A DNA stretch of 64,000 nucleotides from Azospirillum lipoferum 4B. Its GTDB lineage: Bacteria > Pseudomonadota > Alphaproteobacteria > Azospirillales > Azospirillaceae. The DNA lies in NCBI RefSeq assembly GCF_000283655.1, contig NC_016585.1, positions 315,001 through 379,000 of the forward strand. The letters are read 5' to 3'. The notes beneath the pieces were generated by a model. That model was given only the letters and a program-made list of their open reading frames with translations, had not been told where the DNA came from and did not search any database. The position numbers and the translations under genes were made by a program. This document shows, one piece after another, positions 552 through 63,526 of this stretch (positions are counted from its first letter, which is position 1; each line of letters opens with the position of its first letter).

Positions 552-1064
552 CTATCCCACCACCAGATCGTCCAGCCGGAACCCGGCAATATTGTAGATC
601 TCCTCCAGCGCCCGGCCGAACTCCACCTCAGGCTCGTTCGCCACGCGCTCGCGCATTGCCGCCAGGATCTCCTGCTTGCTGCTGAAGCGCACCGCCATGA
701 TGAAGGGAAAACCGAAACGCTTGCGATAAGCGCGGTTCAGGTCGCGCTGCTCCTCCGCCTCCGCCTCGGTCAGCTCGTTCAAGCCGGCCTTCGCCTGTTC
801 GGTCTGCGAGAAGGCGGTCAGATTGGCCGGGCGGCTGGCGCGGTCGGCGAGGTCGGGGTGGGACAGGATCAGCGCCCGCTGCCGCTCCGTTCCCGCATCG
901 CGCACGATGCCGGTCATCGCCGCGCGCAAACCCGCGGCATCGGCGAAGGGTCGCTGGTCCCAGGCGGCCTCGGCCACCCAGGGGCTTTCCTCGAACACCG
1001 CGCCCAGCGCCGCGACGAAGGCGGCGCGGTCCATACGGTTCAGATCGTCGAGACTGTAGGGCAT
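552..1064 (-). CDS. uraD: 2-oxo-4-hydroxy-4-carboxy-5-ureidoimidazoline (OHCU) decarboxylase
   Basis: This 170-residue protein carries out the last step of urate to S-allantoin conversion, decarboxylating OHCU in the cytosol. The family signatures are present: the HPDLA motif with the catalytic histidine, the ESPWVAEAAW segment near the N-terminus, and RFGFPFIMAVR near the C-terminus. I chose the ATG at 1064 because it gives the family start (MPYSLDDLN) and sits 8 nt after the puuE stop. An upstream in-frame ATG would overlap puuE and add unrelated residues. It is co-transcribed with puuE; uraH lies divergently at 2324. Confidence 0.93.
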   Translation of the reverse strand: MPYSLDDLNRMDRAAFVAALGAVFEESPWVAEAAWDQRPFADAAGLRAAMTGIVRDAGTERQRALILSHPDLADRASRPANLTAFSQTEQAKAGLNELTEAEAEEQRDLNRAYRKRFGFPFIMAVRFSSKQEILAAMRERVANEPEVEFGRALEEIYNIAGFRLDDLVVG

Positions 1065-1072
1065 CGGAAGCC

Positions 1073-2002
1073 TCACTTCGGGGCGTAGGGGTGTTCGGCG
1101 ATCCAATGGCGGGCGATGTCCAGCCGGGTCGCCACCCAGACCTTGTCATGGCCCTGCACATAATCGAGGAAGCGGGCCAGCGACGCGGCGCGGCCGGGCC
1201 GGCCGACCAGACGGCAATGCAGGCCGACCGACATCATCTTCGGCGCGCTGTCGCCCTCCGCATAGAGCGTGTCGAAGCTGTCCTTCAGATAGGCGAAGAA
1301 CTGGTCGCCGCTGTTGAAGCCCTGGTTCGTCGCAAAGCGCATGTCGTTGGCGTCGAGCGTGTAGGGCACGATCAGCTGCGGCCGGCCATGGCTGTCGTCC
1401 CAATAGGGCAGGTCGTCGGCGTAGGAATCGGCGTTGTAGACGAAGCCGCCTTCCTCGGCGACCAGTCGCCAGGTGTTGGGGCTGCAGCGGCCGAGATACC
1501 AGCCAAGCGGACGCTCGCCGGTCACGCGGGTGTGCACCTCGATGGCGCGCAGCATGTGATCGCGCTCGACCTCCGCCGGCAGATGCTGGTAGTCGATCCA
1601 GCGCCAGCCATGGGTGGCGATCTCCCACCCCGCGGCCTTCATGGCGGCGACGATTTCCGGGTTGCGCTCCAGCGCCATGGCGACGCCATAGACGGTGACC
1701 GGCAGGTTGCGCTCCGTGAACATGCGGTGCAGCCGCCAGAAGCCGGCGCGCGAGCCGTATTCGTAGATCGATTCCATGTTCATGTGGCGGGCGCCGGGGA
1801 TCGGCTGGGCGCCGACGATCTCCGACAGGAAGGTTTCCGACGCCGCGTCGCCGTGGAGGACGCAGTTCTCGCCGCCCTCCTCGTAATTGATGACGAACTG
1901 CACCGCCACCCGGGCGCCGCCCGGCCAGTTGGCCTGCGGCGGGGTGGCGCCATAGCCGATCATGTCGCGGGGGTAGCCCTGGGGATGGGCGGTCTCGGTC
2001 AT
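1073..2002 (-). CDS. puuE: Allantoinase, polysaccharide-deacetylase family (PuuE type)
   Basis: A 309-residue protein of the PuuE family, which opens the allantoin ring to allantoate and is unrelated to the amidohydrolase allantoinase AllB. Recognisable features are YPRDMIGYG at the N-terminus, VINYEEGGE, the substrate-pocket stretch SIYEYGSRAGFWR, and the deacetylase-fold motif EIATHGWRWIDY. The characterised Pseudomonas PuuE works without a metal, and the same may hold here. It is the first gene of a puuE-uraD operon, divergent from uraH-gcl across a 321-bp region that contains a type P repeat. Confidence 0.93.
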   Translation of the reverse strand: MTETAHPQGYPRDMIGYGATPPQANWPGGARVAVQFVINYEEGGENCVLHGDAASETFLSEIVGAQPIPGARHMNMESIYEYGSRAGFWRLHRMFTERNLPVTVYGVAMALERNPEIVAAMKAAGWEIATHGWRWIDYQHLPAEVERDHMLRAIEVHTRVTGERPLGWYLGRCSPNTWRLVAEEGGFVYNADSYADDLPYWDDSHGRPQLIVPYTLDANDMRFATNQGFNSGDQFFAYLKDSFDTLYAEGDSAPKMMSVGLHCRLVGRPGRAASLARFLDYVQGHDKVWVATRLDIARHWIAEHPYAPK

Positions 2003-2323
2003 CGTCGTCTCGCTCTTAACGCTGCGGTCGAAGCGGGGACTACGCTAAGCCATTGGCGGCAGGGGGTTCAATCGGGCGATTGGGCGCGGGGCTGAAGACA
2101 GTTTCCGGATTTCCGCGGGTGGGCAGGGGCGGGTGGTTGGGCTTAAGCTGTGGGGTGTGAAATGTCGTCGGCTGACGATGCCCCCACCTAACCTCCCCCG
2201 CTGGGCGGGGGAGGGACTGCCGCCGAACACCGACAAAGGTCCGATTCCCTCCCCCGCCCAGCGGGGGAGGGTCAGGGTGGGGGCATTCGAAGCCGATGCC
2301 TGAAAAATGGAGACCACCCACCC
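2003..2323. other. Divergent promoter region between puuE and uraH, containing repeat P
   Basis: This 321-bp spacer separates the puuE-uraD and uraH-gcl transcription units, so both promoters must lie here. About a third is occupied by a type P palindromic repeat (2175-2289). I see no convincing operator or -35/-10 pair in the rest. Confidence 0.5.
2175..2289. repeat. GC-rich palindromic intergenic repeat, type P, copy 2
   Basis: Same layout as 424-542: outer inverted ends (GATGCCCCCACC and GGTGGGGGCATTCG) around two hairpins made from CTCCCCCGCTGGGCGGGGGAG-like halves. It lies in the spacer shared by the divergent ureide-degradation operons, where a strong hairpin could affect the 5' leader of uraH. 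Confidence 0.7.
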
Positions 2324-2674
2324 ATGGGCCGCCTGACCACCCACGTCCTCGACATTGCCGCCGGGCGTCCGGCGCCGGGCATGCGCATCCGGCTGACCGC
2401 ACTCGACAGCGGCACCGTGCTGGGCGAGTTCACCACCAACGCCGACGGCCGGCTCGACGCCCCGGCGCTGCAGGGCGACGCCTTCCAGCCCGGCCGCTAC
2501 GAGCTGCTGTTCATGGCCGGCGAGTATTTCCGCCGCATCGGCACGATCACCGGCGACGGCCCCGACTTCATCGACGAGGTGCCGCTGCGCTTCGGCATCA
2601 GGGACGCCTCACAGCACTATCACGTGCCGCTGCTGGTCTCGCCCTGGGCCTATTCGACCTACCGCGGCAGCTGA
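2324..2674 (+). CDS. uraH: 5-hydroxyisourate hydrolase (transthyretin-like)
   Basis: This 116-residue transthyretin-like protein hydrolyses 5-hydroxyisourate to OHCU, the step before UraD. It begins with the family motif [17 protein letters not shown], which has the active-site histidine, and contains the second histidine in SQHYHVPLL. It ends with the diagnostic C-terminal tetrapeptide YRGS, which distinguishes HIU hydrolases from true transthyretins. Length is typical. It lies just upstream of gcl on the same strand. No urate oxidase gene is seen in this window, so the first step must be encoded elsewhere. Confidence 0.95.
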
Positions 2675-2792
2675 TTCCCCTTTCGGTGCCGCTTTCCAGC
2701 CTGTGGAAAAGGCAACCCATTGGTTTGCCGCACACACCATTGGCGCGCTTAGCTGTCCTCACGAACAATCGCGTTTGGTGAGGAGTCGAGCG

Positions 2793-4562
<1,770 letters not shown>

Positions 4563-7077: not shown

Positions 7078-7998
7078 ATGGCGTTGCTAGAGAACATGCG
7101 CATCTTCGTCCGCGTCGTCGAGCTGGGCAGCCTGTCGGCCGCCGGACGGAACCTGCGCATGTCGCCGGCCATGGTCAGCCACCGCATCCAGCAGCTGGAA
7201 GCCCATCTCGGCGTCCGGCTGCTGAACCGCACGACCCGGCAGCTGCAGGCGACAGAGACCGGTATGGATTTCTACCAGAGCTGCCTGGAGGTTCTTGAGG
7301 CGGTGGAGCGCGCCCACAGCAGCATCGCCGCCGGATCCGGCGTGCCGTCGGGCAGCGTGCGGGTCACGGCGCCGCTCGGCTTCGGCCGCCGCATCCTGTC
7401 GCCGCTGGTGCCGGATTTCTGCGCCGCCCACCCGCTGGTGGAGGTGCGGCTGCGCCTGTCCGACCATCTGCTCGATCTGCTGCGCGAGGCGGTGGACGTG
7501 GCGGTGCGGATGGCGGCGCTGAAGGATTCCAGCTTCGTCGTGCGCAAGATCGCGGACGTGCGGCGCGTTCTGGTGGCCGCTCCCTCCTACCTGTCGGAGC
7601 GCGGCCGGCCATCGGTGCCGGCGGATTTGTCCGGGCACAACTGCCTGCTTCTGCGCTTCCCCGGCACCCAGCAATATCAATGGAGCGTGCTGGAGGGTGG
7701 CGAGCCGGTGAAGCTGCCGGTGTCGGGCCGCTTCGATGCCGACGATGGCGACGTGCTGACCGGCTGGGCGCTGGATGGCCGCGGCATCGCCATGAAGCCG
7801 CTGTGGGAGGTGGCCGAGCATCTCGCCAGCGGTGCCCTGGTGCCGGTGCTGCCGGAGTTTCCGCCGGAGCCGGTGACGCTGGCGGTGCTCTACCCCCACC
7901 GCGCGCTGGTGCCGGCCAAGGTGCGTGCCTTCGCCGACCATATGGTGCCGAAGATCAAGGCTGCGCTGACGGCGATTTCGCCGGATACGATCGTCTGA
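7078..7998 (+). CDS. LysR-family transcriptional regulator
   Basis: A 306-residue LysR-type regulator. Residues 1-65 form the winged helix-turn-helix (ENMRIFVRVVELGSLSAAGR through LEAHLGVRLLNRTTRQLQAT), and the rest is the periplasmic-binding-like effector domain with the usual FGRRILSPLVPDFCAAHPLVEVRL core. It resembles the large subgroup of small-molecule responsive regulators whose targets are usually divergent neighbours, but no divergent enzyme gene is present here. Target and effector are unknown. The ATG at 7078 follows GGGAGTCC at a usable distance. Confidence 0.9.
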   Translation: MALLENMRIFVRVVELGSLSAAGRNLRMSPAMVSHRIQQLEAHLGVRLLNRTTRQLQATETGMDFYQSCLEVLEAVERAHSSIAAGSGVPSGSVRVTAPLGFGRRILSPLVPDFCAAHPLVEVRLRLSDHLLDLLREAVDVAVRMAALKDSSFVVRKIADVRRVLVAAPSYLSERGRPSVPADLSGHNCLLLRFPGTQQYQWSVLEGGEPVKLPVSGRFDADDGDVLTGWALDGRGIAMKPLWEVAEHLASGALVPVLPEFPPEPVTLAVLYPHRALVPAKVRAFADHMVPKIKAALTAISPDTIV

Positions 7999-8028
7999 CC
8001 GCATCCCCCGTTGCCGGATCGGGCATTG

Positions 8029-8055
8029 GAGTCCGGAGGGGAGCCTCCCGGACTC
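8029..8055 (+). terminator. Hairpin downstream of the lysR gene
   Basis: GAGTCCGG and CCGGACTC flank a short GC-rich loop 30 nt after the stop. There is no clear T run, so it is a weak terminator or only an mRNA-end structure. Confidence 0.4.
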
Positions 8056-8117
8056 GACGTGATCCCTTGCCCTGCGACAGCCGGTCTTGCCAGCCGTGGC
8101 CGAACTGTGCAGAGTAG

Positions 8118-8140
8118 AAAATGTAACGATATAACGTTTC
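8118..8140 (+). promoter_or_regulatory. Zur/Fur-like inverted-repeat operator
   Basis: The 23-nt site AAAATGTAACG-A-TATAACGTTTC agrees at 17 of 22 specified positions with the Zur box GAAATGTTATA-N-TATAACATTTC. It lies 23 nt upstream of the start codon at 8164, where a repressor would block transcription. The match is my own alignment, and the regulator is inferred. Confidence 0.45.
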
Positions 8141-8163
8141 ATATTCTGCCCTGAGGACAGGCG

Positions 8164-8406
8164 ATGGCTGGAAGTGCCGACGATCCCTTCAGCGTTCCCG
8201 AAGACTTCATGCGTGCGGTCGCCATCGTGCGCACCCTGTGGTGCAATGACGACGTGCCGGAACGCTCCCTGGCCTGGGCTATGGTGGTGGAGGCGGTCAA
8301 TCGCCTCGCCACCCTTAACGGTCCCGTCAGCACCAGCCGCTTGCTGGCGCGCCTGGGTGAGGCGGTCGGCGAAACCTCCACGCCGTCGTCGCTGACCCTG
8401 CAATGA
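8164..8406 (+). CDS. Hypothetical 80-residue protein behind a Zur-like box
   Basis: A small soluble protein with no family I recognise and no membrane segment or cysteine motif. The frame has the GC-rich third positions of its neighbours and a mixed composition (Trp, Met, Asp, Glu), which supports real coding. A ribosome site (GAGGACAGG) precedes the ATG. The stop overlaps the next gene's start as ATGA, so the two are translationally coupled. The Zur-like operator just upstream suggests metal-responsive expression, which would be the only clue to function. Confidence 0.6.
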   Translation: MAGSADDPFSVPEDFMRAVAIVRTLWCNDDVPERSLAWAMVVEAVNRLATLNGPVSTSRLLARLGEAVGETSTPSSLTLQ

Positions 8407-8891
8407 GCGGCGTGACCAACAACCGCATCCACGGTGCGCGGTCCTGGCGCCAGGCCAAGCCGGTCCTGCTTCACCCCAAGCTTTTCCAAGGATTCATAGA
8501 CTTTCAGGCGGGGCAGCCGTTCGATTACCGCCGGCTCGATTGCTGGCCGATGCTGGATCAGCACCGCTACGAGAATGGGCGGGAGCTCGCCGCCGAATGC
8601 AAGGCCGCCGGCATCACCGTGGTCTGGATCGACCGCACCCGCATTCCGCGCCCCTTGAAGACATTGGTGGTGGAGCGGGCGCTGGCCCGCTGCCCGGTCG
8701 CAGTCGGGGAATCCATCCCGGAACAGGCGACGAGAGGGGGAGCGATCAGGGTTGGGCGATCCGCGTCGTCGGTCGATATCCGCCGCGGCACCTTCCTCAC
8801 ACCCCGCGCGACCGCACCAGCAGGACCCGTGCATCCTCCGCCGCCCGGTGCAGGTGGGGGAGGAACTGCACCTCCATCTCCGGGCAGGTGA
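8403..8891 (+). CDS. Hypothetical protein, coupled to the preceding gene; 3' part probably degraded
   Basis: The ATG at 8403 overlaps the upstream stop by 4 nt. Codons up to about 8730 look truly coding (for example RRLDCWPMLDQHRYENG and AAGITVVWIDRTRIP, with GC-rich third positions). The remaining frame turns into proline- and glycine-rich sequence and runs about 95 nt antisense into the 3' end of the iclR gene. That pattern suggests a lost or frameshifted original C-terminus near 8730-8760. No family is recognised. Confidence 0.42.
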   Translation: MSGVTNNRIHGARSWRQAKPVLLHPKLFQGFIDFQAGQPFDYRRLDCWPMLDQHRYENGRELAAECKAAGITVVWIDRTRIPRPLKTLVVERALARCPVAVGESIPEQATRGGAIRVGRSASSVDIRRGTFLTPRATAPAGPVHPPPPGAGGGGTAPPSPGR

Positions 8892-9630
8892 CTCGGGCGG
8901 CCTGGGCGCTGATGTTCATCGCCGCGACCACGCCGCCGGCAGCGGTGCGGATCGGCACGGCGATGGAGCGCAGGCCCAGTTCCAGCTCCTGGTCCACCAG
9001 TGAGAATCCGCGGTCGCGCACCCGTTCCAACTCGCGCTTCAGCGCATCCGCCGCGGTGATGGTGCGTTCCGTGTAGGGCTTCAACGGGACGCGCGACAGG
9101 TAGGCGTCCAATTCCGGCTCCGGCAAGGCCGCCAGCAGGACACGCCCCATCGACGTGCAATAGGCCGGCAGGCGGCTGCCGACATTCAGCCCGACCGACA
9201 TGATCCGCTTGGTCGCCGCGCGGGCGATATAGACCACGTCATCCTCGTCCAGCACGGCGGCGGAGCAGGATTCCTGCACGGCCCCGCTGACCTGTTCGAT
9301 CAGCGGATCCAGGATCGTCGCGAGCGGGGCCGAGGACAGGAAGGAATAGCCCAGCGCCAGGATCTTCGGCTTCAGATAGAAGGTCCGGCCGTCCGACCCG
9401 GCATAGCCCAGCTGCATCAGCGTCAGCAGGCAACGCCGCGCCGCCGCCCGCGGCAGGCCGGTGATCTTCGCGATGTCGGCGATGGTCAGGTTCGGCTCGC
9501 GTTCGGTAAAGGCACGAATCACCGACAGGCCGCGCGCCAGCGAGGTCATGAAGTTCGGGTCGGACGCCTCTTCCGCCGCAGCGGACGGCGTCTTGTCTGC
9601 GGCCCCGGCCAGATGCTGGGTTTCGGCCAT
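8797..9630 (-). CDS. IclR-family transcriptional regulator (PcaR/PobR-like)
   Basis: A 277-residue IclR-type regulator. The winged helix-turn-helix spans about residues 25-90 (MTSLARGLSVIRAF, LTIADIAKITGLPRAAARRCLLTL). The effector domain follows, with SVGLNVGSRLPAYCTSMGRVLLA and the C-terminal SIAVPIRTAAGGVVAAMNIS, typical of the PcaR/PcaU branch that senses aromatic or organic acids. I chose the ATG at 9630 (MAETQHLAG) because GGGAAGGGA precedes it; a longer frame to 9783 lacks homology. It is divergent from the gntR-oxc-frc operon and may co-regulate it. Confidence 0.92.
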   Translation of the reverse strand: MAETQHLAGAADKTPSAAAEEASDPNFMTSLARGLSVIRAFTEREPNLTIADIAKITGLPRAAARRCLLTLMQLGYAGSDGRTFYLKPKILALGYSFLSSAPLATILDPLIEQVSGAVQESCSAAVLDEDDVVYIARAATKRIMSVGLNVGSRLPAYCTSMGRVLLAALPEPELDAYLSRVPLKPYTERTITAADALKRELERVRDRGFSLVDQELELGLRSIAVPIRTAAGGVVAAMNISAQAARVTCPEMEVQFLPHLHRAAEDARVLLVRSRGV

Positions 9631-9924: not shown

Positions 9925-10614
9925 ATGAACCGCGATAGATTCAGTGTCGAACCCCTGGAACAGGGGATGAGCTTCAAGGCCAAGGCCTACCAGTCGCTGC
10001 GCCAGGCCATCACGCAGATGAACATCTACGGCCAGAGCAGCGAGATCAGGTTGGACGAACGCCGGCTGTGCGAAGCGTTGGGTGTCAGCCGCACCCCGGT
10101 GCGCGAGGCGATGGCGCTGCTGGAACAGGAGGGGTTCATCCGCTCCCAACCGCGGCGCGGGATCTTCGTGGTGCGCAAGACGAAGGCCGAACTGGTGGAG
10201 ATGATCACGGTGTGTGCCGCCCTGGAAGGCATGGCGGCGCGCCTGTTCGTCGAAAACGCCACCACGGAAAAGCTGGAACTCCTGCATGCCGCCTTCGACA
10301 AATACACGAAAGCCGAGTTGGCGGAACATGTCGCCGAGTATTCCGACGCCAACATCGTCTTCCATCAAAGCATCGTCCAGGCTTCGGGCTCCGCGCTGAT
10401 CTCGGATCTGACCGATCGCTTCTTCATCCATATGCGTGCGATCCGCCGCGCGACCATGGGCCTCGGCGACCGTGCCGACCAGTCCATCCACGAGCATCGG
10501 GACATCATCGAGGCGCTGGCCGCCCGCGATGCCGATCTCGCGGAACGTCGGGTGCGGGAACACACGCTCGGTCTCGCACAGTACGTGGAACGGCATTGCG
10601 CCTTCCTCGACTAA
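9925..10614 (+). CDS. GntR-family regulator, FCD (FadR) subfamily
   Basis: A 229-residue regulator. Its N-terminal GntR winged helix ([28 protein letters not shown], residues about 40-70) is followed by an all-helical FCD ligand domain. The metal/ligand-type histidines of that domain are visible in NIVFHQSIV and [12 protein letters not shown]. Only 44 nt separate its stop from oxc and there is no terminator, so it probably heads the oxalate operon and senses a dicarboxylate such as oxalate. An in-frame GTG lies one codon upstream of the chosen ATG. Confidence 0.92.
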
Positions 10615-10658
10615 CCAACTTTGAACCTTTTTCGGAGCCTCGGGGAGGAGTCACCCAT

Positions 10659-12422
10659 ATGTCTACTGCGGCTGCAACGATCACTAAGAACCAGGCCACG
10701 GAAGCATCTGTTGTCGAAGACGCGCCGGCGCTGACCGACGGCTTCCAGCTCGTCATCGACGCGCTCAAGCTCAACGACATCAACAATCTGTATGTCGTCC
10801 CCGGCATTCCGATTTCCGACCTGCTGCGCATGGCGCAGGCCGAGGGCATGCGCGTCGTCTCGTTCCGGCACGAACAGAATGCCGGCAACGCCGCCGCCAT
10901 CGCCGGTTTCATGACCAGGAAGCCGGGCGTCTGCATGACGGTGTCGGCGCCGGGCTTCCTGAACGGCCTGACCGCGCTGGCGAACGCCACCACCAACTGC
11001 TTCCCGATGATCCTCATCAGCGGCTCGTCGGAGCGCGAGATCGTCGACCTGCAGCAGGGCGACTATGAGGAGATGGACCAGCTCGCCATCGCCAAGCCGC
11101 TGTGCAAGGCCGCCTTCCGCATCCTGCACGCCCAGGACATCGGCATCGGCGTGGCGCGTGCCATCCGCGCCGCGGTGTCGGGCCGTCCGGGCGGCGTCTA
11201 CCTCGACCTGCCGGCCAAGCTGTTCTCGCAGGTCATGGATGCGGCCGAGGGCGCCAAGTCGCTGGTCAAGGTGGTCGATCCGACCCCGGCGCAATATCCC
11301 TCGGCCGAGGCGGTGAACCGCGCGCTCGACCTGCTGAAGGGGGCCAAGCGTCCGCTGGTGATCTTCGGCAAGGGCGCCGCCTATGCCCAGGCCGACGACA
11401 CCATCCGCGCCTTCGTCGAGAAGAGCGGCATCCCCTTCCTGCAGATGAGCATGGCCAAGGGCCTGCTGCCCGACACCCACCCGCAATCGGCCGGCGCCGC
11501 CCGCTCGCTGGTGCTGCAGGAAGCCGACGTGGTCATGCTGGTCGGCGCGCGGCTGAACTGGCTGCTGTCGCACGGCAAGGGCAAGACCTGGGGCAAGCCC
11601 GGCTCCAAGAAGTTCATCCAGATCGACATCGAGCCGAAGGAGATGGACAGCAACGTCGAAATCCATGCTCCGCTGGTCGGCGACATCGCGTCCGTCATGG
11701 AAGTGCTGCTGAAGGGGATCGAGGGCGGGCTGACCCCGCCGACCGACTGGATGGCCACCGTCGCCGCCAAGCGTGAGCAGAACGTCGCCAAGATGGCGCC
11801 GAAGCTGATGAGCAACGCGTCGCCGATGAACTTCCACGGTGCGCTCGGCGCTCTGCGCCGCGTCATCAAGGAGCGGCCCGACGCCATGCTGGTCAATGAG
11901 GGCGCCAACACCCTCGACCTCGCCCGCGGCATCATCGACATGTACGAGCCGCGCAAGCGGCTGGACGTCGGCACCTGGGGCGTGATGGGCGTCGGCATGG
12001 GCTATGCCGTCGCCGCCGCGGTGGAAAGCGGCAAGCCGGTTCTGGCGGTGGAAGGCGACAGCGCCTTCGGCTTCTCCGGCATGGAGGTGGAGACGATCTG
12101 CCGCTACAACCTGCCGGTCTGCATCGTCATCTTCAACAACAACGGCATCTATCGCGGGACCGACGTCAATCCGACCGGCGGGGCCGACCCGTCGCCGATG
12201 GTCTTCGTCCCCGGCTCGCGCTACGACAAGATGATGGAGGCCTTCGGCGGCGTCGGTGTGCATGTCACCAATCCCGACGAGCTGTACCGCGCCGTGACCG
12301 AGGCGATGGACAGCGGCCGTCCGACCCTGATCAACGCCGTCATCGATCCGGCCGCCGGCACGGAAAGCGGCAACATCGGCAGCCTGAACCCGACCAGCTC
12401 GGTCCGCAAGATGCCGTCCTAA
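10659..12422 (+). CDS. oxc: Oxalyl-CoA decarboxylase
   Basis: A 587-residue thiamine-diphosphate enzyme converting oxalyl-CoA to formyl-CoA and CO2. Diagnostic stretches include [15 protein letters not shown], the ThDP-activating glutamate in [12 protein letters not shown] (Glu72), [19 protein letters not shown], and the cofactor motif from [15 protein letters not shown] to FNNNGIYRG. The first 25 residues are a longer N-terminal extension than in Oxalobacter. The ATG at 10659 is preceded by GGGGAGGAG; the frame extends upstream inside gntR without homology. It works in series with frc downstream to degrade oxalate. Confidence 0.96.
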
Positions 12423-12484
12423 GAAAGACGGCTCCAAAAATCAGGCCGACCATCACGACTTTGAAAAGCAGGGGGGAGAAATAC

Positions 12485-13759
12485 ATGGGCAAGGCACTTC
12501 AGGGCGTGCGGATTCTCGACTTCACGCATGTGCAGTCGGGGCCGACCTGCACCCAGTTGCTGGCCTGGTTCGGCGCCGACGTCATCAAGGTGGAGCGGCC
12601 GGGCGAGGGTGACATCACCCGCAGCCAGCTGCGCGACCTGCCGGACGCCGACAGCCTGTATTTCACCATGCTGAACCACAACAAACGGTCCATCACCCTC
12701 GACACCAAGACGCCCAAGGGCAAGGAGGTGCTGGAGGCTCTGATCAAGACCTGCGACGTGATGGTCGAAAACTTCGCCCCCGGCGTACTCGATCGCATGG
12801 GGTTCACCTGGGAACGCATCCAGGAGCTGAACCCCGCGATGATCGTCGCGTCGGTCAAGGGCTTCGGCCCCGGGCCGTTCGAGAACTGCAAGGTGTACGA
12901 GAATGTCGCCCAGTGTGCGGGCGGCGCGGCCTCGACCACCGGTTTCGACGACGGCCCGCCGATGGTCACCGGCGCCCAGATCGGCGACAGCGGCACCGGC
13001 CTGCATCTGGCGCTCGGCATCGTCACCGCCCTCTACCAGCGCCGGGAGACCGGCCGGGGCCAGAAGGTGCTGGCCGCCATGCAGGACGCCGTGCTGAACC
13101 TGTGCCGCGTCAAGCTGCGCGACCAGCAGCGTCTGGCCCACGGGCCGATGAAGGAATACCCGCAATACCCGAACGGCGAGTTCGGCGACACGGTGCCGCG
13201 CGCCGGCAACGCGTCGGGCGGCGGCCAGCCGGGCTGGATCCTGAAGTGCAAGGGCTGGGAGACGGATCCCAACGCCTACATCTACTTCATCGCCCAGGCC
13301 CCGGTGTGGAAGTCGATCTGCAAGGTCATCGGCAAGGAGGAGTGGATCACCGATCCCGATTACGCCACCCCGGTCGCCCGCCTGCCGCGCCTGATGGAGA
13401 TCTTCGGCACGGTGGAGGAATGGACCAAGACCCTGACCAAGTTCGAGGTCATGGACATCCTCAACAAGTACGACATCCCCTGCGGCCCGATCCTGTCGAT
13501 GAAGGAGATTGCCGAGGACAAGTCGCTCTACGAGACCGGCACGCTGGTGGAGGTGGAGCACCCGACCCGCGGCAGTTACCTGACGGTCGGCAACCCGATC
13601 AAGCTGTCCGACAGCCCGACAGAGGTCACCCGCTCCCCCCTGCTGGGCGAGCATACCGACGAGATCCTGCGCGACGTGCTGGGCTTCAGCGAGCGCGAGA
13701 TCATGGACATCCGCGACAGCGGCGCCATCGGCGTAGTGGAGCGGTTAGCGGCGGAGTAA
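12485..13759 (+). CDS. frc: Formyl-CoA:oxalate CoA-transferase
   Basis: A 424-residue class III CoA-transferase that moves CoA from formyl-CoA (or succinyl-CoA) to oxalate. It aligns along its whole length with Oxalobacter Frc: [28 protein letters not shown], and the catalytic aspartate in [10 protein letters not shown] (Asp168, equivalent to Asp169 of Oxalobacter). The glycine-loop [11 protein letters not shown] and the closing motif [12 protein letters not shown] are also present. AGGGGGGAGAAA precedes the ATG. Together with oxc it makes a complete oxalate-decarboxylating cycle; no oxalate carrier gene is adjacent. Confidence 0.96.
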
Positions 13760-16273: not shown

Positions 16274-17209
16274 ATGAAAGCGCAAGCCCACACCAACAGC
16301 ATGACCGCCGCCGCCATCGCACGCCGGATCATCCACGACGACCCCAGCGAGGGCGCCGCGGCGATCATCAAGACGGCGATCATCGAGGCGCCGCGCGAGA
16401 AGAACGACAACGGCAAGGCCGACGCCAAGGCCGAGCGCGGTCAGGTGGTGCAGTCGCTCTGCCGCGCGCTGAACATTCTGACCATCCTTGGCGCCAATGA
16501 CGGTCCGATGACCCTGACCGAGCTGGCGGAGGCCGCACACCTGTCGCCCTCCACCACCCACCGCCTGCTGACGACCCTGCAGTATGAGCGCTATGTCCGC
16601 TTCGACCAGAGCGCGCGCGGCTGGGTGGTCGGCGTCCAGGCCTACATGACCGGGGCCAACTTCCTGAAGACCCGCAATCTGGTCGACGTCGCCCGTCCGC
16701 GCATGCGCCGCCTGATGGAGGAGAGCAGCGAGATCGTCAATCTGGCGGTCGAGGAGAATGGCGAGGCGATCTATCTGGCCCGCGTCGGCGGCCCCCGTGC
16801 CGCCCAGGTCGCGGTGCCGCAGACCGACCGCACGCTGCTGCACTGCTCCGCCGTGGGCAAGGCCCTGCTGGCCGGCATGACCGAGACCAAGGTGCAGACC
16901 ATCGTGACCCAGCGCGGCATGCGCCAGTTCACCCGCAGCACCCTGTCCTCGCTGCCGGCGCTGTACCGCGACCTGACGCTGGTGCGGACCCGCGGCTATG
17001 CCCTGGACCAGGAGGAGCGGGTGTCGGGCCTGCGCTGCGTCGCCGCCCCGATCTTCGACGAGAATTCCCGTGTGATGGGCGCCCTGTCGCTGTCCGGCTC
17101 CAGCCGGCGCATCGAGGACGCGCGGCTGCGCGCCCTGGGCGAGATGGTCAAGCGCGCCGCCGCCGCGGTGACGCAGGAACTGGGCGGACGCGTCCCGGTC
17201 CCGAACTGA
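16274..17209 (+). CDS. IclR-family transcriptional regulator with long N-terminal tail
   Basis: A 311-residue regulator. The first 55 residues are a hydrophilic tail rich in Ala, Lys and Asp. The winged helix follows (LCRALNILTILGANDGPMTLTELAE, LSPSTTHRLLTTLQ, residues about 60-115), then the effector domain with LLHCSAVGKALLAGM and GLRCVAAPIFDENSRVMGALSLSG. The ATG at 16274 has GGGAGATGGG upstream. It follows sucD by 123 nt and closes the oxalate/succinyl-CoA region, so it is the likely regulator of sucCD. Confidence 0.92.
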   Translation: MKAQAHTNSMTAAAIARRIIHDDPSEGAAAIIKTAIIEAPREKNDNGKADAKAERGQVVQSLCRALNILTILGANDGPMTLTELAEAAHLSPSTTHRLLTTLQYERYVRFDQSARGWVVGVQAYMTGANFLKTRNLVDVARPRMRRLMEESSEIVNLAVEENGEAIYLARVGGPRAAQVAVPQTDRTLLHCSAVGKALLAGMTETKVQTIVTQRGMRQFTRSTLSSLPALYRDLTLVRTRGYALDQEERVSGLRCVAAPIFDENSRVMGALSLSGSSRRIEDARLRALGEMVKRAAAAVTQELGGRVPVPN

Positions 17210-42249: not shown

Positions 42250-42326
42250 CGGAGAGTAGCTCAGCCTGGTAGAGCACTGCTTTCGGGAGGCAGGGGCCGG
42301 AGGTTCGAATCCTCTCTCTCCGACCA
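42250..42326 (+). tRNA. tRNA-Pro (anticodon CGG), copy 1
   Basis: A 77-nt cloverleaf: acceptor CGGAGAG pairs with CTCTCCG, D-arm GCTC/GAGC, anticodon stem CTGCT/GGCAG with loop TTCGGGA (anticodon CGG at loop positions 3-5). The T-arm has GTTCGAATC, and the CCA end is encoded. It reads CCG codons, which are frequent in this GC-rich genome. Confidence 0.97.
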
Positions 42327-42529: not shown

Positions 42530-42606
42530 CGGAGAGTAGCTCAGCCTGGTAGAGCACTGCTTTCGGGAGGCAGGGGCCGGAGGTTCGAATCCTCTCTCTC
42601 CGACCA
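42530..42606 (+). tRNA. tRNA-Pro (anticodon CGG), copy 2
   Basis: Identical over all 77 nt to the gene at 42250-42326. The flanks are also similar (CCCTCCACCGGCGGACG upstream, AAAGGGCTTCTGGAGA downstream), so the whole promoter-tRNA-terminator unit was duplicated in tandem at a 280-nt period. Confidence 0.97.
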
Positions 42607-58696: not shown

Positions 58697-59989
58697 TCAC
58701 CCCCGGTTCAGCAGGAAATCGACCGTCTCCGGCCGGCCCGGCAGGTCGAGCCTCGCCTGCACCGGCTCGCAGCGGCTGACGATCCGGCCGCGGCGCAGGA
58801 CGAACAGGCGGGCGGCGCGGGTGCGGATCGCCTCCACCGCGCTGCCGGCTTGCAGAACCACCAGATCGGCGTTGCAGCCCGGCTCCAGCCCGTAGCCCTC
58901 CAGATGCAGCAGGCGGGCAGGGTTGACCGTCACCGCGTCGAAGGCGGCCTTGATGCCGTCCTGGCCGGTCATCTGGCCGACATGCAGGCCCATATGCGCC
59001 ACCTCCAGCATGTCGCCGGAGCCCAGCGGATACCAGGGGTCCATCACGCAGTCATGGCCGAAGGCGACCGTCAGGCCGGCGGCCATCAGCTCCGGCACGC
59101 GGGTCATGCCACGGCGTTTGGGATAGCTGTCGTGACGGCCCTGGAGGACGATGTTGATCAGCGGATTGGCGATCACCCCCAGCCGCGCCTCCGCCATCAG
59201 CGGGATCAGCTTGGAGACATAGTAGTTGTCCATGGAATGCATGGAGGTCAGGTGGGACCCGGTCACCCGGCCGTGCAGTCCCAGCCGCTGCGTCTCATAG
59301 GCCAAGGTTTCGACATGGCGGGACAGCGGGTCGTCGGTCTCGTCGCAATGCATGTCGACCAGCAGCCCGCGCTCCGCCGCGATCTCGCAGAGCAGGCGGA
59401 CCGACGCGGCGCCGTCGGCCATGGTGCGCTCGAAATGCGGAATGCCGCCGACCACGTCGACGCCCATGTCCAGCGCCTGGACCAGCAACTCCTTGGCACC
59501 CGGCGCACGGAGAACGCCATCCTGCGGGAAGGCGACCAGCTGCAGGTCGAGATACGGAGCGACGCGCTTCTTGACATCCAGCAGGGCTTCCACCGCCAGC
59601 AGGCGCGGGTCGCAGATGTCGACATGGCTGCGGATCGCCAGCAGGCCGCGCCCGACCGCCCAGTCGCAATAGGCGAGCGCCCGCTCGACGATGGCGTCCT
59701 GGGTCAGCTGCGGCTTCAGCTCCCCCCACAGCGCGATGCCTTCCAGCAGCGTGCCGCTCCGGTTCACCCGCGGCAGGCCGTAGCTCAGCGTGCTGTCCAT
59801 GTGGAAATGGGCATCGACGAAGGGCGGGCTGACCAGCCGGCCGGTGGCGTCGATCTCCGCCACCGTCTCGCCCGCCAGATTCGCTTCGACCGCGGCGATG
59901 CGGCCGTCGCGGATGCCGATGTCGATGCCGCCATCAATGCTGCCACGGCCAACCGGCAGGGTGGCGCGGCGCAGGATCAGGTCGAACAT
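58697..59989 (-). CDS. codA: CodA-type amidohydrolase; probable 5-methylcytosine (or cytosine) deaminase
   Basis: A 430-residue amidohydrolase that aligns residue-for-residue with E. coli cytosine deaminase: metal ligands His61/His63 (AHFHMD), His214 and general acid Glu217 (DMHCDETDD), His246 (TGSHLTSMHS), Asp313 (FGHDCVMDPWYPLG). Position 314, Asp in CodA, is Cys. In the published family study, replacement of Asp314 marks enzymes that deaminate 5-methylcytosine to thymine. GGAGAACGCTG precedes the ATG at 59989. It follows the permease gene with a TGATG overlap in a BMP-ABC importer operon, consistent with nucleobase salvage. Confidence 0.9.
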   Translation of the reverse strand: MFDLILRRATLPVGRGSIDGGIDIGIRDGRIAAVEANLAGETVAEIDATGRLVSPPFVDAHFHMDSTLSYGLPRVNRSGTLLEGIALWGELKPQLTQDAIVERALAYCDWAVGRGLLAIRSHVDICDPRLLAVEALLDVKKRVAPYLDLQLVAFPQDGVLRAPGAKELLVQALDMGVDVVGGIPHFERTMADGAASVRLLCEIAAERGLLVDMHCDETDDPLSRHVETLAYETQRLGLHGRVTGSHLTSMHSMDNYYVSKLIPLMAEARLGVIANPLINIVLQGRHDSYPKRRGMTRVPELMAAGLTVAFGHDCVMDPWYPLGSGDMLEVAHMGLHVGQMTGQDGIKAAFDAVTVNPARLLHLEGYGLEPGCNADLVVLQAGSAVEAIRTRAARLFVLRRGRIVSRCEPVQARLDLPGRPETVDFLLNRG

Positions 59990-60912
59990 CAGCGTTCTCC
60001 TTTGCGGTACGGGATCATCAGGGCGCGCGGGTAGGAGGCCCGGCGGGCCACCAGAACCAGCGCCAGGATGCTCAACAGATAGGGCATCATCAGGAACAGC
60101 TGGTAGGGCAGGACGCCGCCGCTCGCCTGCTGCAGCCGCAGTTGCAGCGCGTCGAACACCGCGAACAGCAGGGCACCCAGCATCGCCTTGCCCGGCCTCC
60201 ACGAGGCGAAGACCACCAGCGCGATGCAGATCCAGCCGCGCCCGTTGACCATGTTGAAGAAGAAGGCGTTGAAGGCCGACAGGGTCAGGAAGGCGCCGGC
60301 CAGCGCCATCAGCGCGCTGCCCGCCATCACCGCGCCGATGCGGATGGCGGTGACGTTCAGCCCCTGCGCCTCGGCAGCGGCCGGATTCTCGCCGACCATC
60401 CGCACCGCCAGCCCGACCGGCGTGCGGTACAGCACATAGGCGACCACCGCCACCAGAAGAAAGGCGAGGTAGGTCAGCGGCGTCTGGGCCAGGGCGCCCG
60501 GCAGGCCCAGCGGCTGGAACGGCTCGACGGTCGGCGGGGTGCTGGCCTGCGGCAGGACGAGGCGGTAGACGAAATAGGACAGGCTGGTCCCCAGCAACGT
60601 CACGCCGATGCCGGTCACATGTTGCGATAGGCCGAGCGGTACGGTCAGCGCCGCATGCAGCAGGCCGAGCAGCGCGCCGCAGGATGCCGCCACCAGCACG
60701 CCGGTCCACAGATCGGCCCCCTGATAGACCGCCATCCAGCCGGCCATGGCGCCCAGCGTCATGATGCCTTCAATACCGAGATTCAGCACGCCGGCCCGCT
60801 CGCACAGCAGCTCGCCCAGCGTGCCCAGCACATAGGGGGTGGCGATGCGCAGCACCGCGGTCCAGAAGGCGGCGGATAGCAGTATGTCGAGGATGATCGA
60901 CAGGAAATCCAT
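59989..60912 (-). CDS. Nucleoside-type ABC transporter permease 2
   Basis: A 307-residue membrane permease of the BPD_transp_2 family (NupQ/YufQ-like). It has about eight helices and the motifs TPYVLGTLGELLCERAGVLNLGIEGIM, GAMAGWMAVYQGADLWTG and VRMVGENPAAAEAQGLNVTAI, typical of purine or nucleoside importers that use a BMP lipoprotein or binding protein. Its stop shares a base with the start of the CodA-like gene, and it starts 6 nt after permease 1. Confidence 0.92.
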   Translation of the reverse strand: MDFLSIILDILLSAAFWTAVLRIATPYVLGTLGELLCERAGVLNLGIEGIMTLGAMAGWMAVYQGADLWTGVLVAASCGALLGLLHAALTVPLGLSQHVTGIGVTLLGTSLSYFVYRLVLPQASTPPTVEPFQPLGLPGALAQTPLTYLAFLLVAVVAYVLYRTPVGLAVRMVGENPAAAEAQGLNVTAIRIGAVMAGSALMALAGAFLTLSAFNAFFFNMVNGRGWICIALVVFASWRPGKAMLGALLFAVFDALQLRLQQASGGVLPYQLFLMMPYLLSILALVLVARRASYPRALMIPYRKGER

Positions 60913-60918
60913 GACCCC

Positions 60919-61971
60919 CTACCCCCGCCGCAGCCGGTAGCGCGCCAGCAGCCCGGCGACCAGCATGCACAAGAGGCTGGCGGCGACCAGGACGTCGGCG
61001 ATGTAGTTGGGAACCGGCATGGCGCGGCTCATGGCGTCGGCGCCGACGAAGATGCCGGCGATGAACAGCGCCGCACCCACCACGCCGATGGGATGCAGCT
61101 GCGCCAGCATGGCGACGACGATCCCGCTGTAGCCGAAGCCCGGCGACAGGTCGAGCGTCAGATAGCCCTTCAAGCCGCAGACCTCCGCCGCCCCGGCAAG
61201 CCCGGCGAGACCGCCCGACAGCAGGGCGGTGCGCAGCATGACCCGCGTCACCGGCATGCCGGCGAAGGCGGCGGCGCGCGGGTTGGCGCCGACCGCGCGG
61301 TTCTCGTAGCCCCAGATGGTCCGGGTATCGACCAGCCACAGCAGCACCGACAGGCCGAGCGCGATGGCGAGCCCGGCATGCAGGCGGGTGCGCTCCACCA
61401 GCTTGGGCAGTTCCGCCGTCTCGACCACCGGCGCCGACTGCGGCCAGCCCATGCCCATCGGGTCCTTCAAGGCGCCTTCCAGCAGCATCGACACCAGCAG
61501 CAGCACGACGAAGTTCAAGAGCAGGGTCGTCACCACCTCGTCGACGCCGAAGCGGACCTTCAGCACCGCAGGGCCGAGCAGGGTGACGCCGCCGGCCGCC
61601 ATGCCGGCGATCATCACCACCGGGATCAGCGCCCAAGCCGGCAGGTCGAGCATACCGCCGCCGACCACAACGGCGGCCAGCGCGCCCATGTAGAGCTGTC
61701 CTTCCGCCCCGATGTTCCACAGCTTGGCGCGGAAGGCGACGGCGGCGGCGAGGCCGGTCAGGATCAGCGGGGTGGCGCGGTTCAGCGTCTCGGTCAGGGC
61801 GAAGCGGGAGCCGACCGCGCCCTCGAACAGCAGCCCATAGGCGCGCAGCACCGGGGCGCCGGTCCAGGCGACCAGCAGAGCGCAGAGCGCCAGCGCCGCG
61901 ACCACGGCGCCCACCGGCGCCAGCAGCCGCAGGGCGAGCGGGGTATCGGTGCGCGGTTCAAGCCGCATCAA
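60919..61971 (-). CDS. Nucleoside-type ABC transporter permease 1
   Basis: A 350-residue membrane permease of the same family (NupP/YufP-like): LTETLNRATPLILTGLAAAVAFRAKLWNIGAEGQ, VDEVVTTLLLNFVVLLLVSMLLEG, GANPRAAAFAGMPVTRVML and FGYSGIVVAMLAQLHPIGVV. It overlaps the ATPase gene by 14 nt, a sign of coupled translation. With permease 2 it forms the heterodimeric channel. Confidence 0.92.
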   Translation of the reverse strand: MMRLEPRTDTPLALRLLAPVGAVVAALALCALLVAWTGAPVLRAYGLLFEGAVGSRFALTETLNRATPLILTGLAAAVAFRAKLWNIGAEGQLYMGALAAVVVGGGMLDLPAWALIPVVMIAGMAAGGVTLLGPAVLKVRFGVDEVVTTLLLNFVVLLLVSMLLEGALKDPMGMGWPQSAPVVETAELPKLVERTRLHAGLAIALGLSVLLWLVDTRTIWGYENRAVGANPRAAAFAGMPVTRVMLRTALLSGGLAGLAGAAEVCGLKGYLTLDLSPGFGYSGIVVAMLAQLHPIGVVGAALFIAGIFVGADAMSRAMPVPNYIADVLVAASLLCMLVAGLLARYRLRRG

Positions 61972-63526
61972 CAGTCTCCGGCAGAATGTCGCGCAAAACG
62001 TCCCAATGCCCAGCCATCAGCAGGCCGAGCTGGCTGACCGTCACCCGGTCATGGGGCAGCAGCGGGGTGAGGCGCCCGTGATAGGCGACGGTGACGCAGT
62101 CGGCCAGCGCCAGGATTTCGTCCAGATCCTCGGAGATCAGCAGCACGCCGGCCCCGGCGGCGCGGGCGTCAAGCAGCCGGCTGTGGACATAGGACACCGC
62201 GCCGATATCGAGCCCGCGCGTCGGCTGGCTCGCCAGGATCAGGTCCGGCCCATGGGCCAGCGTGCGGCCCAGGATCAGCTTCTGCATGTTGCCACCCGAC
62301 AGCAGCTGCGTGCGGGCATCCGGTCCGGGGCAGCGGACGTCGAACTCCTCGATCACCTCGCGGGCGTAGGCCCGCGCCGCCCCCCGCCGCAGCACGCCGA
62401 AGCGGGAAAAGGCGCGGTCGTGATAGCGCTCGGCGATCAGGTTCTCCCAAACCGCCATGGCGCCGACGAGGCCGGCGCTGTGCCGGTCCTCTGGGATGCG
62501 GGCGACGCCGCGCCGCACCATGTCGGCCGGTTCGCCATGCTCCACCACGCTGCCTTTCAGCGACAGCCAGCCGGAGTCGGGACGGATCAGGCCGCTGACC
62601 AGCTCGGCGAGCGCGGTCTGGCCGTTGCCGGACACACCGGCGATGCCGACCACCTGATGGCGCCGCACCGTCAGGTCGACCCCGTCCAGCAGCGGGCGGC
62701 CATGGCCGGAGGCGACGGTGACGCCCGACAGTTCCAGCACCGGCTCGCCAGGGCTGAGCGGGGTCGGGGCAGGCGGCTTGACGCTGCGGCCAACCATCAA
62801 CTCGGCCAGTTTGGCGCGGTCGGTGGAGGCGGTGGCGTGGGTGGCGACCAGCTTTCCGCTGCGCAGGACGGCGACGGTGTCGCTGGCGGCAAAGACCTCG
62901 TTCATCTTGTGGCTGATGAAGACCACGGCGAGCCCGTCGGCGGTCAGCTTGCGCAGCGTGTCGAACAGCCCGGCCGATTCCTGCGGCGTCAGCACCGCGG
63001 TCGGCTCGTCCAGGATCAGGATGCGGGCGTCGCGGTAGAGCGCCTTCAGGATTTCCGCCCGCTGCCGCTCGCCGACCGACAGGTCGCCGACCGGCGCGTC
63101 CGGCCGAACCTCCAGCCCGAATCTCTGGGAGAGGTCGAGCAGCCGGCGGCGGGCCGCACCCCGGTCGGAGCGCCAGCGCCAAAGCGATTCGGTGCCGACG
63201 GCGATGTTGTCCAGCACCGACAGATTGTCCGCCAGGGTGAAATGCTGGTGGACCATGCCGATGCCGGCCTCCAGCGCCGCGCGGGGCGAGCCCGGCAGCA
63301 GGGGGCGGCCGAACGCCTCGATGCTGCCCTCGTCGGCGACGTAATGGCCGAACAGGATGTTCATCAGGGTGGTCTTGCCGGCGCCATTCTCGCCAAGCAG
63401 CGCCAGCACCTCGCCGGCGCGGAGCGTCAGCGAGATGCCGTCGTTGGCAAGCAGCGGACCGAAGCGCTTGGATATGCCGGCGAGCCGGAGGACGACCTCC
63501 GGCCCGCCCTTCACGGGTGATGACAT
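61958..63526 (-). CDS. Nucleoside-type ABC transporter ATP-binding protein, tandem domains
   Basis: A 522-residue protein with two ABC domains. The first is canonical: GENGAGKTTLMNILFG, the DLSVGERQRAEILKAL signature and LILDEPTAVLTP. The second has a degenerate Walker A (GVSGNGQTALAELVSG, no Lys-Thr pair), the signature LLSGGNMQKLILGRTLA and LASQPTRGLD, as usual for RbsA/NupO-like proteins. The ATG at 63526 gives the family start. It energises the two permeases downstream. Confidence 0.93.
   Translation of the reverse strand: MSSPVKGGPEVVLRLAGISKRFGPLLANDGISLTLRAGEVLALLGENGAGKTTLMNILFGHYVADEGSIEAFGRPLLPGSPRAALEAGIGMVHQHFTLADNLSVLDNIAVGTESLWRWRSDRGAARRRLLDLSQRFGLEVRPDAPVGDLSVGERQRAEILKALYRDARILILDEPTAVLTPQESAGLFDTLRKLTADGLAVVFISHKMNEVFAASDTVAVLRSGKLVATHATASTDRAKLAELMVGRSVKPPAPTPLSPGEPVLELSGVTVASGHGRPLLDGVDLTVRRHQVVGIAGVSGNGQTALAELVSGLIRPDSGWLSLKGSVVEHGEPADMVRRGVARIPEDRHSAGLVGAMAVWENLIAERYHDRAFSRFGVLRRGAARAYAREVIEEFDVRCPGPDARTQLLSGGNMQKLILGRTLAHGPDLILASQPTRGLDIGAVSYVHSRLLDARAAGAGVLLISEDLDEILALADCVTVAYHGRLTPLLPHDRVTVSQLGLLMAGHWDVLRDILPETVDAA

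Follow-up and report, generated by a model that had tools for sequence, protein, structure and literature searches.

What base does a CodA-type deaminase act on when Asp314 of the Escherichia coli enzyme is replaced by cysteine and the gene lies at the end of an ABC-transporter operon? The question is raised by one end of a 64,000-nucleotide stretch of Azospirillum lipoferum 4B (contig NC_016585.1, positions 315,001 to 379,000 of the forward strand; this whole stretch is hereafter called the window), for which an initial annotation had proposed a probable 5-methylcytosine deaminase. We find that the operon probably serves the uptake and deamination of pyrimidine bases, with cytosine as the main substrate and 5-methylcytosine also accepted, and that its products would feed catabolism. 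The proposed activity is acceptable as a capability, given that clade, Cys314 and operon are common to this protein and the Rhodobacter sphaeroides enzyme, but it is too narrow as a function, since gene linkage points to uracil-yielding catabolism and hence to cytosine.

Table 1. Genes of the putative pyrimidine-base operon, with their positions in the window.
Feature	Coordinates	Strand	Evidence
CodA-type amidohydrolase (PRK07572), Cys at position 314	58697..59989	-	Translation, NCBIfam, residues, tree
ABC transporter permease 2 (BPD_transp_2)	59989..60912	-	Pfam PF02653; junction TGATG
ABC transporter permease 1 (BPD_transp_2), start at ATG of MRLEP	60919..61968	-	Pfam PF02653; ORF list
ATP-binding protein, two ATPase domains, start at ATG of MSSPVKGG	61958..63526	-	PF00005, two stretches; ORF list
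BMP-family (PnrA-like) solute-binding protein, C-terminal 151 residues	63544..64000	-	Pfam PF02608; 89% identity to the BMP protein of the A. brasilense operon

The deaminase gene (Table 1) translates into 430 amino acids with no internal stops, and its ATG, which lies downstream of an AAAGGAG, overlaps the stop codon of the upstream permease gene by one base. The protein scored 803.6 bits against the NCBIfam model PRK07572 (NF005748, "cytosine deaminase"; cut-off 438, which is loose by itself, E. coli CodA scoring 483.8) and 439.6 against the E. coli-type model PRK09230, below the cut-off of 483. Aligned to E. coli CodA, whose numbering matches that of the window protein here, it retains H61, H63, Q156, H214, E217, H246 and D313, so that the PRK07572 residue set (HxH, His214 and Asp313 as metal ligands, with Glu217, His246 and Gln156) is complete, and it carries Cys at position 314. 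The alignment bears out the earlier statement that the metal ligands and Glu217 are retained; the reported GHDC in place of GHDD is likewise real, although the motif occupies positions 311-314 and not 312-314. E. coli CodA and its variants were the top PDB matches of the protein, followed by Klebsiella 4r7w. The best structural matches of an AlphaFold model (mean pLDDT 82.6, 29 sequences) were again E. coli CodA structures and the Klebsiella 5-methylcytosine deaminase 4r7w, the titles of the matched entries naming D314 mutants of CodA and, for 4r7w, "5-methylcytosine deaminase". This comparison of a predicted model supports the fold alone. Pocket loops 279-292 and 316-322 were poorly modelled (pLDDT below 50), and an argument from pocket volume or docking was dropped for this reason.

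Cys314 is the state of the whole PRK07572 family and is not peculiar to the window gene. Every one of the 80 loci kept from a contig scan (the best 80 of 594 confirmed, at least 72% identity) carried Cys at this position, which argues against chance as the source of the residue in the window. Across 128 family rows, among them two pairs of identical rows (L081/L095 and L032/L106) and further near-duplicates, residue 314 was Cys in 126 and Ser in two, and Q156, E217, H246, N275, D313 and W319 were invariant; loci L165-L167, which are wide copies of loci in the set or lie close to them, were removed from both the residue survey and the tree. A less biased set of 337 alphaproteobacterial genomes, assembled from three class searches taken as one, contained 35 genomes above the PRK07572 cut-off, with best scores of at least 707 bits; among the 30 loci retrieved from these, 28 had Cys314 and two had Ser314. 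Two deaminase copies (L121 and L126, in genomes G055 and G182) are interrupted by an in-frame stop within the matched region and are possible pseudogenes.

For the phylogeny, 137 rows were thinned to 91 by removing those at least 88% identical to a row already kept, with the named outgroups and two Azospirillum rows exempt from this removal. All family members (82 of the 91 rows), including the window deaminase and the R. sphaeroides protein, formed one clade with support of 100/99. The window gene therefore falls inside, and not outside, a clade without Asp314, as a 5-methylcytosine deaminase of the kind first proposed should. Outside this clade lay Asp314 proteins of E. coli, Vibrio, L. brevis and Embleya and Ser314 proteins comprising Klebsiella-type rows, L. 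sakei and Haloarcula. Their branching order is unsure, since the tree is midpoint-rooted and the outgroup branches are long (Haloarcula, next to the clade, is itself a long branch), and for the same reasons the number of Asp314 losses is unsure. One member of the family, L067, comes from an Opitutae MAG (Verrucomicrobiota) that carries the entire operon; its deaminase branches among those of Burkholderiales, which suggests horizontal transfer or mis-binning. Residue 314 has reportedly been used in a published survey as a marker for 5-methylcytosine deaminases. Because a single residue state spans this family, some members of which lie in uracil-catabolism clusters, Cys314 is insufficient as such a signature: alone, it does not tell whether a protein is a methylcytosine enzyme or the cytosine deaminase ordinarily found in these bacteria.

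Comparison with characterised enzymes gave a similarly mixed picture. The reaction-centre H chain of genome G400 agrees along 260 residues, without a mismatch, with PDB chain 1e14_H and with the entries sharing its sequence; the genome contains only one member of the deaminase family (searched to an E value of 1e-20), which scores 754 bits and lies about 50 kb from puhA. We take puhA to be RSP_0291, in which case the distance fits locus number 0341, and we infer that this protein is Rsp0341 of R. sphaeroides. This protein and the window deaminase share 66% identity, membership of PRK07572, Cys314 and the order of their operons (BMP, ATPase, permease, permease, deaminase), but the site of the R. 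sphaeroides protein reads GWGQDC, with Trp310 and Gln312 in place of the Phe310 and His312 of the window protein. In work from 2014 attributed to Hitchcock, Rsp0341, Kpn00632 of Klebsiella pneumoniae and NCgl0075 of Corynebacterium are said to have been published as 5-methylcytosine deaminases. Kpn00632 (4r7w, 4r85, 4r88) resembles the window deaminase in fold, in catalytic residues and in its non-Asp residue 314, but its signature of Ser314, Ala311, Gln312 and a CPTES strand is absent from the window protein, which instead has Cys314, Gly311, His312 and NPLIN, and the Klebsiella-type group (with the close relative L087 from Enterobacter standing for Kpn00632) and the window's clade were not sisters in the midpoint-rooted tree. 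Lined up with the Klebsiella and Rhodobacter enzymes, the window protein thus has the loss of Asp314 in common with both but differs from the Klebsiella enzyme at positions 311 and 312 and from the Rhodobacter enzyme at positions 310 and 312. E. coli CodA (1k6w, 3o7u; a cytosine/isoguanine deaminase) shares with it the fold, the catalytic residues and a large part of the pocket, including N275-P276-L277, W319, Phe310 and His312; it differs in having Asp314 in place of Cys, in its partner, which is the permease CodB and not an ABC transporter, and in lying outside the 82-row clade. According to excerpts of PMC6186785, Kpn00632 carries Ser at the residue-314 site, and replacing this Asp by Ala in E. 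coli CodA (where it is numbered Asp315) renders the enzyme active on 5-methylcytosine. Residue 312, which is His in the window protein and Gln in the R. sphaeroides enzyme, was considered as a second discriminator and rejected: URC or PreA genes were linked to 22 of 93 loci with His312, one of these rows being a duplicate, and to two of 17 without it (Fisher p 0.35).

The transporter genes offer a second view of the substrate. The initial annotation had described a complete BMP-type nucleoside importer; the ATPase and both permeases are indeed present, but the BMP gene runs off the end of the window, and its full-length form is visible in relatives only. In G001, the nearest relative among the genomes examined, an IclR-type regulator (best match BhcR, below cut-off) lies directly upstream of the BMP gene. 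The description as a nucleoside importer is doubtful, since adenine and guanine bases are the ligands of the nearest solved binding proteins: with the A. brasilense BMP protein as query, the closest were Brucella 3s99, which has adenine modelled in its binding site, and AtzT (6pi5), both at E values of about 3e-32, with 7x0r, 4p98, 6yab and BmpA 9q1u lower. The AtzT site was mapped by pairwise alignments onto 48 BMP rows (matches of at least 200 residues; 47 distinct, four of them, L101-L104, from loci with no deaminase). An aromatic sandwich is kept, Trp48, near Tyr45 of AtzT, occurring in 48/48 rows and Trp194 in 42/48, with Phe in the others, and Glu165 of AtzT is matched by an invariant Glu166 (48/48). 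In contrast, the guanine-contacting Asn218 is Glu in all 48 rows, Asn220 is retained in none (Phe, Ala or Ile), and Ser97 is Ala or Val in 38. This pattern suggests a base-binding site that may have been retuned away from guanine. The part of PMC6834077 on which we rely describes AtzT as carrying guanine when purified (Kd 0.11 uM) and as binding cytosine only at 800 uM, the latter counting against a reading in which cytosine is taken up. The closest NCBIfam names for the transporter were "putative B6 ABC transporter" subunits, at scores far below the cut-offs. The operon suggests a pyrimidine base as the substrate of this BMP-type importer, which by name comes closest to a nucleoside (PnrA-like) or a "B6" transporter. 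Two variations of the gene order were seen: in three rhizobial loci (L083, L086 and L088) an amidase gene, perhaps for a later step of pyrimidine breakdown, is inserted between the BMP and ATPase genes, and on a plasmid of Rhodovulum sp. P5 (L084) the ABC transporter that precedes the deaminase (7917-9158) is of the polyamine type and not of the BMP type.

Neighbouring genes bear on the product. The orthologous region of A. brasilense (L081) has the order URC1-URC4-upp-BMP-ATPase-permeases-deaminase, in which the URC1-like gene is a GTP cyclohydrolase II. Among 110 loci, 109 of them distinct, 16 had URC genes (URC1, URC4 and uracil phosphoribosyltransferase) adjoining the deaminase; the set leaves out 45 short loci (L089-L133, among which L099-L104 lack a deaminase) and 10 others (L087, L164 and L176-L183; outgroups and a short copy). 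Fifteen of the 16 combine His312 with Cys314, and the remaining one has Asn312 with Cys314; in six the examined flank showed no transporter, which argues that the URC link belongs to the deaminase itself. Uracil phosphoribosyltransferase does not use thymine, and an orthologue embedded in a URC cluster should make uracil and hence deaminate cytosine. Since the A. brasilense gene order needs uracil as the product, cytosine is probably the main substrate. In the passages available from PMC7530994, uracil is degraded by URC1 and URC6 and then by URC4. PreA/PreT genes of the reductive pathway were found near the deaminase in eight of the 110 loci (7/109 distinct, L032 and L185 being one place), and in 20 alphaproteobacterial regions PreA was nearby in five and URC genes in one.

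Several observations temper this argument. URC1, URC4 and upp were not found beside the operon within the window, and URC4 was not found in its nearest kin (G001, G003, G005, G008 and G010), which carry the reductive pathway, G001 with PreT, PreA and a hydrolase read as PydC. Across the 337 genomes URC4 was not associated with the deaminase (2/35 with the deaminase versus 27/302 without it, p 0.75). The absence of URC4 from the window's own lineage and the lack of a genome-wide association both count against the URC argument; we therefore set genome-wide co-occurrence of URC4 aside, and the URC case is one of adjacency, taken without a chance control. PreA, on the other hand, occurred in 27 of 35 deaminase-positive versus 29 of 302 deaminase-negative Alphaproteobacteria (p ~1e-17, with kinship and genome size uncontrolled). 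The reductive pathway takes thymine as well as uracil, and the PreA link does not discriminate between cytosine and 5-methylcytosine. Within the best 80 of the 594 loci, 50 showed neither transporter nor URC/PreA genes in the flank examined, 16 of the 80 being shorter than 15 kb, and this counts against the picture of uptake coupled to catabolism. Among 13 Azospirillum genomes (G001-G013; the locus in G009 has the same coordinates as the plasmid hit from A. brasilense), URC4 was found in six and PreA in six, never together, with neither in one; the deaminase was present in 10, five with URC4 and five with PreA. A fourteenth genome (G064) had PreA, while URC4 and the deaminase were absent from it in the class searches. 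This mutual exclusion has the appearance of a swap of the uracil-degradation route within one genus.

By homology, a pathway in which a free pyrimidine base is imported and deaminated by the products of the five-gene operon (BMP protein, two-domain ATPase, two permeases and deaminase) can be proposed. The binding protein would hold the base sandwiched between aromatic residues, and the ABC transporter would carry it inward, where the metal-dependent deaminase would release the exocyclic amine as ammonia. The roles assigned to CodA-type residues are partly general background. Others are drawn from excerpts of PMC12828455 and PMC6186785. D313 and H246 would activate the metal-bound water, E217 would shuttle protons at N3 and at the leaving amine, and Q156 would grip the 2-oxo group. 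Conversion of cytosine to uracil would be the main physiological reaction; 5-methylcytosine would also be accepted, giving thymine, since the window protein has Cys in place of the Asp that crowds C5 in E. coli CodA. Turnover of 5-methylcytosine by the window deaminase is indeed likely on sequence grounds, as it shares clade, Cys314 and operon with the R. sphaeroides enzyme. Product and ammonia would then enter nitrogen and carbon catabolism, through the reductive (Pre/Pyd) pathway in the close kin of the window and, in A. brasilense and its relatives, through the URC pathway.

The same clade, Cys314 and operon could also speak for an enzyme dedicated to 5-methylcytosine, with cytosine as a side substrate, in an operon that, in line with the salvage route of the initial annotation, would recover or degrade methylated bases set free from DNA and yield thymine. 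The R. sphaeroides enzyme reportedly has a kcat/Km of about 2.9e4 per M per s for 5-methylcytosine, a published activity of a characterised orthologue that counts against a cytosine-first reading, and the reductive pathway is found both in the R. sphaeroides genome and in the nearest kin of the window. We nevertheless consider such dedication unlikely, in view of the URC-linked orthologues with GHDC (15/16 loci) that need uracil as their product, of the family-wide occurrence of Cys314, which nothing here connects to DNA methylation, and of the missing Trp310 and Gln312 of the R. sphaeroides enzyme. Rather unlikely, too, is the broader proposal that the operon is a dedicated route for importing and deaminating 5-methylcytosine from methylated DNA in the soil or root zone, coupled to thymine catabolism, and that Cys314 marks a large, unrecognised clade of environmental 5-methylcytosine users among Alpha- and Betaproteobacteria.

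Two other substrates deserve mention. The space opened at C5 is not methyl-specific, and the operon is common to plant-associated hosts (Azospirillum, rhizobia), so that another C5-substituted cytosine, such as 5-hydroxymethylcytosine, or a plant-derived pyrimidine might be the main substrate; we regard this as improbable, as no positive evidence speaks for it and the pocket loops are poorly modelled. Isoguanine or another oxidised purine base, entering through a purine-base binding protein, is a very improbable physiological substrate. The nearest solved binding proteins do hold purine bases, E. coli CodA is annotated as acting on isoguanine, and uric-acid degradation genes lie at the opposite end of the window, but the AtzT residues Asn218 and Asn220 are replaced throughout the BMP rows, the purine genes are remote from the operon, and the linkage found is to pyrimidine catabolism, the neighbourhood searches of relatives having covered pyrimidine and not purine genes. 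Cytosine, with 5-methylcytosine as an additional substrate, thus remains the preferred reading.

Elsewhere in the window, at a distance of about 54 kb from the deaminase gene, positions 552-4562 encode uric-acid and allantoin degradation (OHCU decarboxylase, allantoinase PuuE, hydroxyisourate hydrolase and glyoxylate carboligase). Genes for oxalate use (oxalyl-CoA decarboxylase and formyl-CoA transferase) occupy 10068-13759, with an IclR-type regulator at 16274-17209, and oxalate genes also occur near the deaminase in A. brasilense L081. Finally, two tRNA-Pro (CGG) genes of identical sequence lie at 42250-42326 and 42530-42606, each followed by a similar terminator-like stretch.
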